Shown piece after piece: positions 16,067 to 20,099 of a stretch of DNA of 64,000 bases. Every line of letters starts with the position of its first letter. Position 1 is the first letter of the stretch. The stretch covers positions 62,001 to 126,000 of the forward strand of contig JAKOTR010000022.1 of the NCBI GenBank assembly GCA_029776225.1. Reading direction: 5' to 3'. Both the position numbers and the translations under genes were made by a program. Under the pieces are notes generated by a model. That model had not been told where the DNA came from. It searched no databases and worked only from the letters and a program-made list of their open reading frames with translations. This DNA is from Acidobacteriota bacterium. Lineage in GTDB: Bacteria > Acidobacteriota > Terriglobia > Bryobacterales > Bryobacteraceae.

Positions 16067-19000
16067 TCAGCGGGCCTGCTCAATCATCCGGAAGATTCGT
16101 TCCCCGTACCTCTCCACAGTCTTCAGGCCGACGCCCGGGATCGCGAGCAACTCGGCTGTCGATGCGGGCCGCTCGCTCGCGATGGCCTGAAGCGCGCGGT
16201 TGGTGAGAATGCGGAATGCCGGCACCCCGAGCCGTTTCGCCTCCGCCATTCGCCATTCCCGGAGAGTCCTGGCAAGGGCGTCATCCTGAGCCGGCTTTTC
16301 CGGCGCTACCCTGACCCGCCGGGCGGAAGACTTGCGCGCCTTTGTTTTCTTCCGGCGGCGCACGGGCAACGGCGGTTCAATCCCCTGAGGGATGGGGATG
16401 TCCGGCAACTCCTCGGGCACGGCGGCCGCCAGTCTCGCCAGCGTGAACGGGATCAGCTTGCCGTCCTTTCTAAACGAGGTCTCGGTTAGCTGAACCAATC
16501 CTGCGCGCGCGAGGCCCCCGAGGAGCTGCTCAAAGGCATCACGGCCGATGGATCGATCCTTGCCGAACAGATCGGTGTAGAGCCGGCCTGTGGGCCGCTC
16601 ACCCGCGCGCCTTAGCTCGACCAGAAGACGGCCGAGCGCCTCGCGCTCAGCCGTGCTGGGTGGCCGGAACGTTTGGGCGACGCACGAATCCGGAGCGCAG
16701 AAATCGCACACCCCGCAGGGGACGCGGGCGTCCTCGTGGTCGCCGAAGTGGCGAACCAGCGCGGCCATACGGCACTGATGCGAGCCGGCGTAACGCAGCA
16801 TTTGTTCGAGGTGCGCGAGTTTGCGCTCGCCCTGGGCGATGTAGGCTTCGCGCCACCCGCCGTTGCCGCGCGCGACGTTTTCGGCGAAGTCCACCAGCGC
16901 GCCGCCGTGAATCCACAACTTCTCGAGCGCTTTCTCGAAAACTTCCGGCTCCACGCGGCAGCGGCGCTCGAGCTCCTCGCGCGCGATGGGAACATCCGAC
17001 AGCTTCGCGTAAATGGCGTCGAGCACTTGGACGTCCGGGTAGTCCCGCTCGAAGAAGTAATCGTGCTTGTGGCGGTCGGCGTAGGAGTGCATCAGGATGG
17101 CCCGCGCGGGCATTCCATCGCGGCCCGCGCGGCCGATCTCCTGATAGTAGGCCTCCACGCTCCCGGGCAGCGCGGTGTGGACCACGGTGCGAACGTCCGC
17201 CTTGTCGATTCCCATGCCGAAGGCGATGGTCGCCACCACGACTTCGAGGCTGCCCTCGACAAAACGGGCCTGCACGTCGTCGCGCTTCGCGGCATCCAAT
17301 CCGGCGTGGTAGGCCGCGGCGGGGAAGTAACGGTTCAGCATGCGGGCGAGCGCCCCGGCCTCGGCCCGCGTCGGCGCATACACGATGGCCGGACGCCGCG
17401 CGGGGTCGAGCAGAAGGTCGCGCGCCAGCTCCTTGCGGGCCGACGGCGGCGCCCCGACCACTTCCACCGCAATGTTCGGCCGGCGAAATCCGTGGACGGC
17501 CCGCAAGGCGCCCTCGAGCCCGAGCTGCTGGATGATGTCATCCTGCACCACGGGCGTGGCGGTCGCCGTTAGGGCGACGACCGGGGCCGGGCGCAACAGC
17601 GGCAGGTAGCGGCCGAGCATCCGGTAGTCCGGGCGGAAATCGTGCCCCCATTCGGAAATGCAGTGAGCCTCGTCGATGGCGACCAGCGAAGGCTTGCGCT
17701 TTCCCAGCATCTCGGGGAAACCGGGAACGCGGAGGCGCTCGGGAGCGATGAACAGAAAATCGAGGCAACCGTTGAGGTAGTCGATTGAGGCCTGCCGCGA
17801 GGCGGCGCGGTTGCGGCCCGAATGGATGCGGTCGGCTCGGAAGCCGCGTTCCTTGAGCTTAGCCACCTGATCTTCCATCAGGGCGATCAAGGGGCTGATG
17901 ACAAGCGTGGTCCCGCCGCGGGCGATGCCGGGAAGCTGGTAGCAGAGCGATTTGCCCGCTCCGGTTGGCATCACGAGCAGGACGTCGCGGCCGTCGATGG
18001 CGGCGCGGCAGACCTCCTCCTGATTCGGCCGGAAGGAGGGAAAACCAAAGCGCGAGGAAAGGATTTCCGCGAGGTTCGAACAGGCAGCCGCGTTATTGAT
18101 TGCGCCGGCGGGCGCGGAAACGGGCTCCGATTTCCTTTCCGGTTCGATGCGGCCGACCACATCGCGGACATAGTCCTCGATGCTTTTCAGAAACGGCTCA
18201 AGCTGCGCCGTTCCGCGCTCGATCCTCCGCAGGCAGGCTTCCCACTGGCCAGTCATGGCCGGACTCTTGACCTCCGGGTGCACGACCTCGATCAGCCGGA
18301 TGCCTTTGTCGGTGGCCGCAAGCGTCTTCCCTTGACGGACGACGTAACCGCGCTTGAGCAGCACTTCGATGATGGCGGCGCGCGTGGCCGGGGTGCCCAG
18401 CCCGCACTCTTTCATCGCCTCCGAGAGTTCCTTCTCGTCGAGCGTCTTTCCGGCGGTTTCCATTGCCGTGAGAAGGGTGGCGTCGGTAAAGCGCTTGGGC
18501 GGGCGGGTGCGCTTGCGCACGCTCTCGACGTCCGCCACGGTCTGCGGCTGGCCGGTTGCGAGCCCCGACGGGAGGGGATCTTCGGCGGCATCCTTCTTGA
18601 CCTTGAGGTCCAGCGCTTTCCAGCCTTCCTGCTGAACGACGGTCCCGGAAGTGAGATACCGATCCAGCGCGCCGGGATTGGAGATCGCCGTGATGACCGT
18701 TGTGGTGGACGAGATATGGTCGGGCATCCACGCGGCGAGCAGGCGGCGGCAGACCAGGTCATACAGCTTGCGCTCATCCGGCGGCGGCGAGGCTTTTTCG
18801 AGCGGGGTCGTGGTGGGAATGATGGCGTGGTGGTCGGTAACTTTGGCGTCGTCGACAAAACGGCGGGAAAGGGGGCGCTCTCCAGTTCCGGGCGCGAGCA
18901 GTTGGGCGTAAGGCGCGGAAATGGCGCGGACGACGGCGGGCAGGGTGGCGGCGACATCACTCGACAGGTGGCGCGAGTCGGTCCGAGGGTAGCTGAGCAG

Positions 19001-19966
19001 CTTGTACCGCTCGTAGAGGGATTGGGCAAGTTGCAGGGTCTTTTCGGCGCTGAAGCCGAAGAGGCGGTTGGCGTGCCGTTGGAGCTCCGTGAGGTCGTAA
19101 AGAAGCGGCGGCGGCATCCGCTGCGTTTCCGCCTGAATGGATTCGATGCGGGCCTCACCGCTGCGGGCGCGCTCGATGATGGCGGCGGCCTGTTCGCCGT
19201 CCGCCGGGAGGCGCGTCTGCCTCTCGCCTTTGGTCTCAGTAAACCAAACGCCTTTGTAGGATTCCCCCGGCCGGGGCGAGAAAGTGGCGACGACTTCCAG
19301 GTAGTCTTCGGGAACGAAGGCGCGGATGGCGAGTTCACGCTCGACCAGCATGGCGAGCGTGGGCGTCTGGACGCGGCCGACGGACAGCTCGTCCTTGAAC
19401 GCCAGGGTATAGGCGCGCGAGAGATTCATTCCGACGAGCCAGTCGGCCCGGCTGCGCCCGCGAGCGGCGTCGGCCAGGTTGTCGTATTCGCGGCCGTCGC
19501 GCAGGTTTTCGAAGCCCTTGCGGATGGCTTCGGGTGTCAGCGATGAGATCCATAGGCGCTGGAAAGGCTTTCGGCATCCCGCCGCCTCGTAGATGTAGCG
19601 GAAAATCAGTTCGCCTTCACGTCCGGCGTCTGTCGCGCAGACGATGCGGCTGACGCGCGGGGAATTGAGAATTTTTCGTACGACCTCGAACTGGTCCTTG
19701 GTCTCTTCGCAAACAACCAAGGGCCACTCGTCGGGGATCATCGGGAGCAAGTCCCGGCGCCAGCGGCGCCATTCCGGACGGATCTCGTGTGGTTGCGCAA
19801 GGCCTACCAGATGCCCGAGGGCCCAGGTGACGATGTAGCCTCCGCCGTGGAGATGACCCCTCCCTTGCGTTTTCGCGCCCAGGACGCTGGCGATGTCGCG
19901 GGCAACCGAGGGTTTTTCAGCCAGGACCGCCACGAGCGAAGAGCCCGCGGCGCGTGGAGAATCCAT
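16067..19966 (-). CDS. Topoisomerase III - RecQ helicase fusion protein
   Basis: One uninterrupted frame of 1299 residues. The N-terminal part (about 12-610) is a type IA topoisomerase III of the Bacillus TopB kind: Toprim domain with AVLAEKPSVARDIASVLGA and ATDAGREGELIFRYI, catalytic YPRTDSR (Tyr326), and DAKVTDHHAIIPT. The C-terminal part (about 636-1299) is a full RecQ: MPTGAGKS (Lys672), DEAH at 765-768, ATIAFGMGIDKADVRTV, a zinc-binding Cys set with CGVCDFC near 1080, a winged helix, and an HRDC domain ending IPGVGLKTVERYGERI. RecQ unwinds and the topoisomerase passes strands; together they dissolve double Holliday junctions in the Bloom/TopoIII alpha complex. The start is set by TACAAT 7 bases upstream; another ATG lies at 19975. 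Confidence 0.93.
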   Translation of the reverse strand: MDSPRAAGSSLVAVLAEKPSVARDIASVLGAKTQGRGHLHGGGYIVTWALGHLVGLAQPHEIRPEWRRWRRDLLPMIPDEWPLVVCEETKDQFEVVRKILNSPRVSRIVCATDAGREGELIFRYIYEAAGCRKPFQRLWISSLTPEAIRKGFENLRDGREYDNLADAARGRSRADWLVGMNLSRAYTLAFKDELSVGRVQTPTLAMLVERELAIRAFVPEDYLEVVATFSPRPGESYKGVWFTETKGERQTRLPADGEQAAAIIERARSGEARIESIQAETQRMPPPLLYDLTELQRHANRLFGFSAEKTLQLAQSLYERYKLLSYPRTDSRHLSSDVAATLPAVVRAISAPYAQLLAPGTGERPLSRRFVDDAKVTDHHAIIPTTTPLEKASPPPDERKLYDLVCRRLLAAWMPDHISSTTTVITAISNPGALDRYLTSGTVVQQEGWKALDLKVKKDAAEDPLPSGLATGQPQTVADVESVRKRTRPPKRFTDATLLTAMETAGKTLDEKELSEAMKECGLGTPATRAAIIEVLLKRGYVVRQGKTLAATDKGIRLIEVVHPEVKSPAMTGQWEACLRRIERGTAQLEPFLKSIEDYVRDVVGRIEPERKSEPVSAPAGAINNAAACSNLAEILSSRFGFPSFRPNQEEVCRAAIDGRDVLLVMPTGAGKSLCYQLPGIARGGTTLVISPLIALMEDQVAKLKERGFRADRIHSGRNRAASRQASIDYLNGCLDFLFIAPERLRVPGFPEMLGKRKPSLVAIDEAHCISEWGHDFRPDYRMLGRYLPLLRPAPVVALTATATPVVQDDIIQQLGLEGALRAVHGFRRPNIAVEVVGAPPSARKELARDLLLDPARRPAIVYAPTRAEAGALARMLNRYFPAAAYHAGLDAAKRDDVQARFVEGSLEVVVATIAFGMGIDKADVRTVVHTALPGSVEAYYQEIGRAGRDGMPARAILMHSYADRHKHDYFFERDYPDVQVLDAIYAKLSDVPIAREELERRCRVEPEVFEKALEKLWIHGGALVDFAENVARGNGGWREAYIAQGERKLAHLEQMLRYAGSHQCRMAALVRHFGDHEDARVPCGVCDFCAPDSCVAQTFRPPSTAEREALGRLLVELRRAGERPTGRLYTDLFGKDRSIGRDAFEQLLGGLARAGLVQLTETSFRKDGKLIPFTLARLAAAVPEELPDIPIPQGIEPPLPVRRRKKTKARKSSARRVRVAPEKPAQDDALARTLREWRMAEAKRLGVPAFRILTNRALQAIASERPASTAELLAIPGVGLKTVERYGERIFRMIEQAR

Positions 19967-19973
19967 CGAAAGC

Positions 19974-19979
19974 ATTGTA
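19974..19979 (-). promoter_or_regulatory. -10 TACAAT, leaderless promoter of the fusion gene
   Basis: TACAAT on the minus strand ends 7 bases before the ATG at 19966 and overlaps the other candidate ATG (19975). The downstream ATG is therefore the likely start of a leaderless message. Confidence 0.5.
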
Positions 19980-20009
19980 GCGGCCCAGGGTTCCGCGGGC
20001 CATCTCTGA

Positions 20010-20038
20010 GAGAAAAAGCCGGGAGGCGAATCCCGGCT
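20010..20038 (-). terminator. Rho-independent terminator of the second TonB receptor
   Basis: Stem AGCCGGGA (20017-20024) with TCCCGGCT (20031-20038) and a 6-base loop. On the minus strand it is followed by TTTTTCTCT. It separates the receptor from the topoisomerase-helicase gene. Confidence 0.85.
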
Positions 20039-20099
20039 CAGCAAATCACCACCTGATCACGGGCGCTGGGCGGCACGGTCTCTCGCGCCGCCAGCGTCC

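Follow-up and report, generated by a model that had tools for sequence, protein, structure and literature searches.

A single gene on the minus strand (16067..19966, ATG at 19966) of the 64,000-nucleotide stretch analyzed here (the window) encodes a 1299-residue protein in which topoisomerase III (TopB) is joined to a RecQ-family helicase. The translation of 16067-19966 ends with a stop and contains no internal stops. Translation could also begin at an ATG lying three codons ahead of this start in the same frame, or at TTG 20044, the start used in the open reading frame listing (16067..20044, minus strand, 1325 aa). The original prediction gave the interval correctly, omitting the strand, and the stop-free frame it described is borne out by the translation and the Pfam domains. 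From the N-terminus, all on the minus strand, the protein comprises Toprim (19541..19930, residues 13-142, Pfam); the type IA topoisomerase core, Topoisom_bac (18188..19489, residues 160-593, Pfam), with Tyr326 of the motif YPRTDSR at 18989..18991; a linker of approximately residues 611-629 (18080..18136), predicted to be disordered (pLDDT < 50); RecA-like domain 1 (DEAD, 17543..18031, residues 646-808, Pfam), with Walker A (17948..17974, residues 665-673, including Lys672) and DEAH at 765-768; RecA-like domain 2 (Helicase_C, 17114..17419, residues 850-951, Pfam); a roughly 65-residue insertion that separates RecA2 from the zinc domain (16844..17038, approximately residues 977-1041), predicted to fold as helix-helix-helix-strand-strand; the RecQ zinc-binding domain (RecQ_Zn_bind, 16697..16834, residues 1045-1090, Pfam); a predicted RQC-type winged helix (16385..16654, approximately residues 1105-1194), seen in the structure model; and HRDC (16082..16282, residues 1229-1295, Pfam). 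RQC, which the prediction listed in its proposed domain-architecture search, has no Pfam match in this protein.

The protein scores 594.6 bits with the topB model TIGR01056 (cut-off 515.75) and 375.3 with the recQ_fam model TIGR00614 (cut-off 219.8), and falls below the cut-off of the equivalog model for canonical bacterial RecQ, TIGR01389 (477.7 versus 640.2). The C-terminal half is a RecQ-family member, with the zinc domain and HRDC in place, that is not filed as canonical RecQ. The N-terminal half contains Toprim and Topoisom_bac, the active-site tyrosine and the Toprim acidic residues. In alignment, Tyr326 falls at the position of the catalytic Tyr328 in E. coli Topo III, which makes it the catalytic tyrosine by this comparison, as originally predicted; it is invariant in an alignment of 51 rows, as are E17, D113 and E117 of Toprim. 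Lys672 and DEAH, both named in the original prediction, are invariant in the alignments made, as are the zinc ligands Cys 1065/1084/1087/1090 in the 60-row alignment. The two alignments hold 50 relatives with the fusion, the fusions L155, L158, L173, L182, L187 and L188, the remnants L132, L133 and L217 (see below) and the contig-cut L130 being left out. Among 59 fusion loci, remnants included, strict motif searches find Toprim CATDAGREGE in 59, YPRTDSR in 56, EKPSVARD in 52, Walker A in 54, DEAH in 56, motif VI in 56 and the Cys pattern in 51; in the aligned loci that fail a strict motif the key residues are invariant, and L182, which fails the Cys pattern, is absent from the alignments. The fusion has DAGREG versus DPDREG in E. 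coli, so that one Asp position is Gly; Listeria TopB shares DAGREG, as do 10 of 26 free TopB loci. Retention of HRDC, noted in the original prediction, holds for 59 of 60 aligned RecQ halves, whereas four whole fusions (L124, L173, L182 and L188, three of them outside that alignment) have no match over that end.

Structure comparison agrees with these assignments. Residues 11-611 of the model match E. coli Topo III (2o19_A) with Z 34.5 over 589 aligned positions (rmsd 3.4), and the RecQ-half model (its residues 1-570) matches the E. coli RecQ core (1oyw) with Z 30.7 over 482 positions (rmsd 5.3), which gives the model a predicted winged helix of the RQC type. A model of TopB, linker and RecA1 (pTM 0.70) has a disordered linker and shows no sign of a fixed interface; a rigid TopB-RecQ interface is therefore unsupported. 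Across 59 relatives the linker is 11-184 residues long and Pro/Ala-rich. In eight pairs, dN/dS is 0.035-0.27 for the topoisomerase half and 0.031-0.30 for the RecQ half, and 0.18-0.76 for the linker in the six pairs where it is computable. Both halves are under purifying selection and the linker varies fast; given that fusions were recognized as single open frames, an uninterrupted linker is in part a consequence of how the sample was chosen.

Genomic context does not connect the gene to repair: none of its eight neighbors in the window, nor of the ten neighbors in eight relatives (two without any family), is a repair gene, and an operon or defence island is rejected on these grounds. For a neighboring outer-membrane protein, the only plasmid-record matches that span 80% or more of its length are four, in Granulicella and Acidisarcina, in keeping with Acidobacteriota as the phylum. 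Upstream of the start lies a weak terminator-like hairpin with a T-rich tail (20016..20039, minus strand; 1 found versus 0.3 expected by shuffling), which points to the end of the upstream gene at this site and to separate transcription of the fusion. TACAAT is located 7 bases 5' of the fusion start; a consensus promoter scan at the gene finds none, and there is no structured RNA at gathering score in 14-24 kb.

Of 120 genomes from the order to which the window belongs, at least 62, the window genome among them, have the join in one frame. A blastp search confirms the fusion in 60 further genomes, a set that overlaps with the 120: 37 from the window's phylum, 22 from Myxococcota and one from Verrucomicrobiota, three of the 60 holding only a degenerate helicase remnant. 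The covalent fusion originally proposed is thus genuine, and it spans at least two phyla. In Myxococcota it occurs in at least 22 of 188 genomes sampled, all 22 confirmed by blastp; two further long frames (G588 and G683) hold TopB without RecQ and are not fusions. The Verrucomicrobiota case (1 of 145 at E <= 1e-150) comes from a single genome, on a contig of 8 kb, and may reflect a binning error. The fusion is found in none of 249 Gemmatimonadota genomes at E <= 1e-150, which says little alone because nothing registered in that search, and in none of 199 Planctomycetota genomes at E <= 1e-90, as judged by frame length (longest, 1050 aa). A scan of genome contigs with exact patterns, which would miss distant fusions, retained 80 loci that match only within the RecQ half or at its edge, and tblastn finds no TopB half at these contig loci. 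A phage or plasmid gene is rejected: neither 50,697 phage records (87 with any match) nor the best 5000 plasmid records contain a locus that matches 80% or more of the fusion query. A scan of viral contigs with exact peptide patterns yields four loci, each with its match in the RecQ half.

In the TopB tree, a single branch (SH-aLRT 99) separates the 60 rows labelled as fused, together with one other row, the frameshifted G397, from the rest. In the RecQ trees, free RecQs nest among the fused ones, which makes repeated loss of the topoisomerase half probable. These are quick trees, midpoint-rooted and with SH-aLRT support only. An AU test of one Myxococcota clade versus gene transfer between phyla does not discriminate between the two (p = 0.096). 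The RecQ half is often present without TopB, and free in many lineages, so that the coupling appears dispensable there; no intact free TopB of the fusion clade is found among the close matches listed, both statements drawing in part on a survey that scored two candidates per genome. The doubtful free-TopB cases, when fetched, prove to be contig ends (G246, G468, G495, G496 and G637 run off the contig) or a frameshift in the linker; G428 was left out of this check, and G564, whose 47% identity is in line with that of free TopBs, was left off the tree. Neither a further TopB nor a further RecQ scores over the cut-off in the window genome (97.7% complete), nor is there a second TopB over the cut-off in any of 12 other fusion or remnant genomes tested. 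Some fusion genomes carry extra RecQs (e.g., G368), and G642, G687 and G712 a second, distant TopB.

The closest known parallel is the BLM-TOP3A-RMI / Sgs1-Top3-Rmi1 dissolvasome, where a RecQ-family helicase is likewise physically joined to topoisomerase III; in the fusion, this joining is provided by one open frame, and it differs in being one covalent chain, topoisomerase first, and bacterial. In Listeria (NZ_LR134400.1), recQ and topB are adjacent on one strand, 23 bp apart, and unlike the fusion they are two unfused genes with recQ first. E. coli TopB and RecQ share the folds of the fusion halves but are separate proteins that, according to one review, show no physical interaction (PMC7140829). 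The RecQ-TopB partnership that the original prediction treated as established is likewise taken as given in another review (PMC8185306), and the E. coli account goes against it. The existence of a bacterial RecQ-Topo III "toposome" has been debated since 1999. RecQ modulates Topo III in vitro in work cited by a 2026 paper and by the former review, and E. coli genetics speaks against cooperation (PMC13244152, PMC7140829); the 2026 paper favors RecG over RecQ (PMC13244152). A literature search for a TopB-RecQ fusion found no paper.

Taken together, these observations make it fairly probable that the fusion is old, probably arose once, and turns a bacterial Topo III and a helicase of the RecQ family into a single enzyme. 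The best reading of the sequences is a putative one-polypeptide RecQ-Topo III strand-passage enzyme, in which activity, coupling of the halves and substrate are all predicted. The RecQ half would load on branched or partly single-stranded DNA, unwind or branch-migrate it, and hand the exposed single strands to the gate of the tethered Topo III for cleavage, passage and resealing; double Holliday junctions or hemicatenanes could thus be dissolved, or converging forks unlinked. The flexible Pro/Ala linker would provide a fixed 1:1 ratio and a high local concentration, not a rigid machine. The domains in one frame, the fold matches, the invariant residues, the conservation, the single branch of fused TopBs, the dN/dS values, the absence of a second TopB from the 12 other genomes tested, the adjacent Listeria genes and the in vitro modulation of Topo III count for the one-enzyme reading; E. 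coli genetics, the dispensable coupling, the absence of a fixed interface, the motor-less remnant and the non-repair neighbors count against it.

Several of these points would suit a fusion that fixes only dosage and recruitment (e.g., to SSB-coated DNA or forks), with uncoupled halves acting on different substrates: the linker is fast-evolving, variable in length and, in the window protein, predicted to be disordered, the RecQ half is free in many lineages, and the E. coli data oppose cooperation. The lack of an intact free TopB of the clade among the close matches listed argues against such a simple tether, which we regard as rather unlikely.

In three of 19 genomes of one genus, TopB is fused to a degenerate RecA1 of about 187 residues. 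This remnant lacks RecA2, the zinc domain, RQC and HRDC, its DEAH is changed and the aromatic loop is lost, yet the protein end is identical in all three genomes and dN/dS is 0.13-0.17. TopB thus persists there joined to a remnant devoid of a motor, so that this topoisomerase can do without an attached one. The RecQ part might be mainly a DNA-binding or gate-assisting tail for TopB, with ATP-driven unwinding secondary. This appears improbable, considering that the helicase motifs are invariant in 60 aligned rows, that each of the three genomes has an intact RecQ of the fusion type at another locus, and that the truncation may be recent, as suggested by weak similarity past the stop in two of them. 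A tentative proposal, possible and somewhat doubtful, is that Topo III of this clade depends on the attached RecQ domain and that the remnant is kept as a built-in gate cofactor, comparable to RMI1 of eukaryotes; the observations behind it are the lack of an intact free copy among the matches listed and the purifying selection on the remnant.

Reverse gyrase has the helicase first. The fusion has the topoisomerase first and scores 122.2 with the reverse gyrase model TIGR01054 (cut-off 471.7), in contrast to its score above the TIGR01056 cut-off, so that reverse gyrase is rejected by model score and domain order. A mesophilic reverse-gyrase-like enzyme changing supercoiling in an ATP-dependent manner is, for the same reasons, highly improbable, even if reverse gyrase also combines an SF2 helicase, termed RecQ-like, with a type IA topoisomerase in one protein, as stated in one review (PMC8185306). 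An assembly error is very unlikely because the join recurs in the order-wide and blastp-checked (overlapping) sets, and an assembly chimera or neutral read-through of two adjacent genes, for which G397 with its halves in different frames might speak, has an almost negligible probability given the same join in 60 further genomes and the constraint on both halves across a fast linker.

The fusion matters because the physical RecQ-Topo III partnership is disputed in E. coli. Maintained by selection in at least two phyla, it argues strongly, on comparative grounds, that the two enzymes are direct partners in the bacteria concerned. With it one can test whether a bacterial topoisomerase and RecQ truly pair, and it provides a ready-made enzyme of 1:1 composition with which dissolution can be studied structurally and at the single-molecule level, with natural controls in the lineages without the topoisomerase half and in those without the helicase motor.

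On the minus strand of the window (positions 16067–19966), translation and an ORF listing give a single frame of 1299 residues with zero internal stops, in which Pfam recognizes, in this order, the Toprim, Topoisom_bac, DEAD, Helicase_C, RecQ zinc and HRDC domains. The protein exceeds the curated cut-offs of the NCBIfam models topB (594.6 vs 515.75) and recQ_fam (375.3 vs 219.8) and scores below that of the canonical recQ equivalog (477.7, cut-off 640.2). Translation, Pfam and NCBIfam all bear out the original prediction of topoisomerase III (TopB) fused to a RecQ helicase in one stop-free frame, that is, the RecQ-Topo III pair turned covalent. The predicted structure of the RecQ half (pLDDT 91.1, pTM 0.85) matches 1oyw, the core of E. 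coli RecQ, with a Z score of 30.7 and an rmsd of 5.3 over 482 residues; for the TopB part of a second prediction, covering TopB, linker and RecA1 (pLDDT 89.3, pTM 0.70), the values against E. coli Topo III are 34.5 and 3.4 over 589 residues. The RQC domain has no Pfam match in the fusion and appears as a winged helix in the predicted RecQ half.

The genome encodes one further type IA topoisomerase, which is TopA-like, and a search for a separate topB or recQ gene finds none over the cut-offs (115 contigs, 97.7% complete). The flanking genes encode outer-membrane, sugar and oxidoreductase proteins and PNPase, the neighboring outer-membrane protein having its best plasmid-gene matches in Granulicella and Acidisarcina, which agrees with Acidobacteriota as the phylum; this gene context is uninformative and counts against a coupled-enzyme reading. 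Just upstream of the fusion start (within 19966–20039, minus strand), a weak terminator-like hairpin is followed by a TACAAT that precedes the start codon by 7 bases; a consensus scan finds no promoter there, and TACAAT is perhaps the fusion's own promoter, giving a leaderless message. Functional coupling of RecQ and Topo III is further weighed against by extra copies in other fusion genomes: two RecQs over the cut-off in G368, additional, more distant RecQ matches in others (G401, G417, G438, G475 and G485 among them), and a second, distant TopB in three (G642, G687, G712). The same holds for four whole fusions without a match over the HRDC end (L124, L173, L182, L188) and for E. coli evidence against the partnership in passages of PMC13244152 and PMC7140829.

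In the order to which the window genome belongs, at least 62 of 120 genomes, counting that genome itself, have the join in one open frame. Among the matches listed, 33 of these cases show a single match that extends from TopB and enters or traverses the RecQ C-terminus, another 7 show a single match that spans less than the full join, and 22 show two or more matches with one common frame length. A survey of the whole phylum, a lower bound since two candidates were scored per genome, yields the fusion in at least 10 of 396 genomes (the window's own included), together with one that crosses the join where its contig stops and two that are truncated. Beyond Acidobacteriota, it is found in 22 of 188 Myxococcota genomes, all 22 borne out by blastp, and in one of 145 Verrucomicrobiota (E <= 1e-150, on one 8-kb contig); none is detected in 199 Planctomycetota (E <= 1e-90, judged by frame length), 249 Gemmatimonadota (E <= 1e-150) or a mixed sample of 43 genomes. 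The further genomes borne out by blastp number 60: 37 from the own phylum (including three in which TopB carries a mere RecQ remnant and one that its contig end truncates), 22 Myxococcota and one Verrucomicrobiota. Selection has maintained the fusion in two phyla or more, and a third has yielded a single case. Two fusion frames reach 1990 and 1734 residues (L184 and L201, respectively), L184 having about 590 residues of open frame ahead of TopB; in Listeria, recQ and topB adjoin on one strand, recQ first, with a 23 bp gap (L237, 2980–6929). Among the matches listed from open-licence papers, none describes a TopB-RecQ fusion; the architecture may already be on record in InterPro or another domain database.

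Nei-Gojobori dN/dS in eight fusion pairs is 0.035–0.27 for the topoisomerase part and 0.031–0.30 for RecQ; the linker evolves faster (0.18–0.76 in six computable pairs, dS being saturated in two). Constraint on both halves around a fast-evolving but open linker argues that the whole chain is translated, an argument weakened by the choice of loci by single open frame. The linker measures 11–184 residues in 59 relatives and is 37% Pro + Ala. Acidic tryptophan motifs, possibly short docking motifs, recur in the long linkers of L127, L128, L129, L176 and L177, and that of L128 repeats a nearly identical short unit three times.

On the TopB tree, the 60 rows labelled fused, including the window, the remnants and two contig-split cases (one of which, G246, is a putative fusion), fall on one side of a single branch (SH-aLRT 99). 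The only other row there is G397, in which the TopB and RecQ halves are adjacent in different frames (L205), through either a frameshift in the linker or a true fission. On the RecQ tree, the fused RecQs form one group (99) with 19 of the 20 free RecQs of the own phylum, the twentieth, from G169, lying outside. The free RecQs are scattered, with a minimum of 9 changes of the 'solo' label, 6 forced by the starred branches ('solo' rows include G397 and G169). A tree holding fused and free RecQs apart is rejected (AU p 4e-129). The single TopB group, together with free RecQs in several places, suggests that the topoisomerase half was probably lost repeatedly, a direction of change that is inferred on midpoint-rooted trees. 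This is supported by four genomes with a fusion-type RecQ and without TopB over the cut-off (G171, G394, G380, G185); the family-mates G187 and G289 are likewise without such a TopB and have a RecQ of a different kind.

Between RecA2 and the zinc domain, this RecQ type carries a characteristic insertion of about 65 residues (16844–17038, minus strand). Measured between motif VI and the first zinc cysteine, and counted over loci, some repeated, rather than genomes, the spacing is 110–117 in 68 fusions, 113–116 in 32 fusion-type free RecQs, 42–54 in 53 of 67 other RecQs and 114–223 in the remaining 14. Comparably long spacing occurs in a few distant RecQs (L037, L101, L138); L138, the G169 protein outside the fusion group, is perhaps near the source of the fusion's RecQ half.

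In 3 of 19 genomes of one genus from another family of the class, TopB is followed only by a RecA1 part of about 187 residues (L132 7528–10224, L133 7928–10555 and L217; genomes G281, G241 and G1334). This remnant retains GxGK, has EEAE for the DEAH box, and lacks the aromatic loop, RecA2, zinc, RQC and HRDC; the protein ends alike in all three. With dN/dS of 0.13–0.17, against 0.08–0.11 for the topoisomerase part and 0.57–0.66 for the linker, it is under purifying selection. In G241 and G1334, RecQ similarity continues slightly beyond the stop, a trace of the lost part. These genomes have an intact fusion-type RecQ elsewhere. Since their TopB is placed among the fusions of other families and their free RecQ groups with its own family, the fusion was probably acquired later, after which the redundant motor would have decayed and the structural part been kept. 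That the Topo III of this clade came to depend on its attached RecQ, the remnant serving as a cofactor of the topoisomerase gate, seems rather unlikely, and slightly more so in view of the RecQ similarity that G241 and G1334 show after their stop codons and of the narrow search for free TopBs. A motor-less derivative of the fusion occurs naturally.
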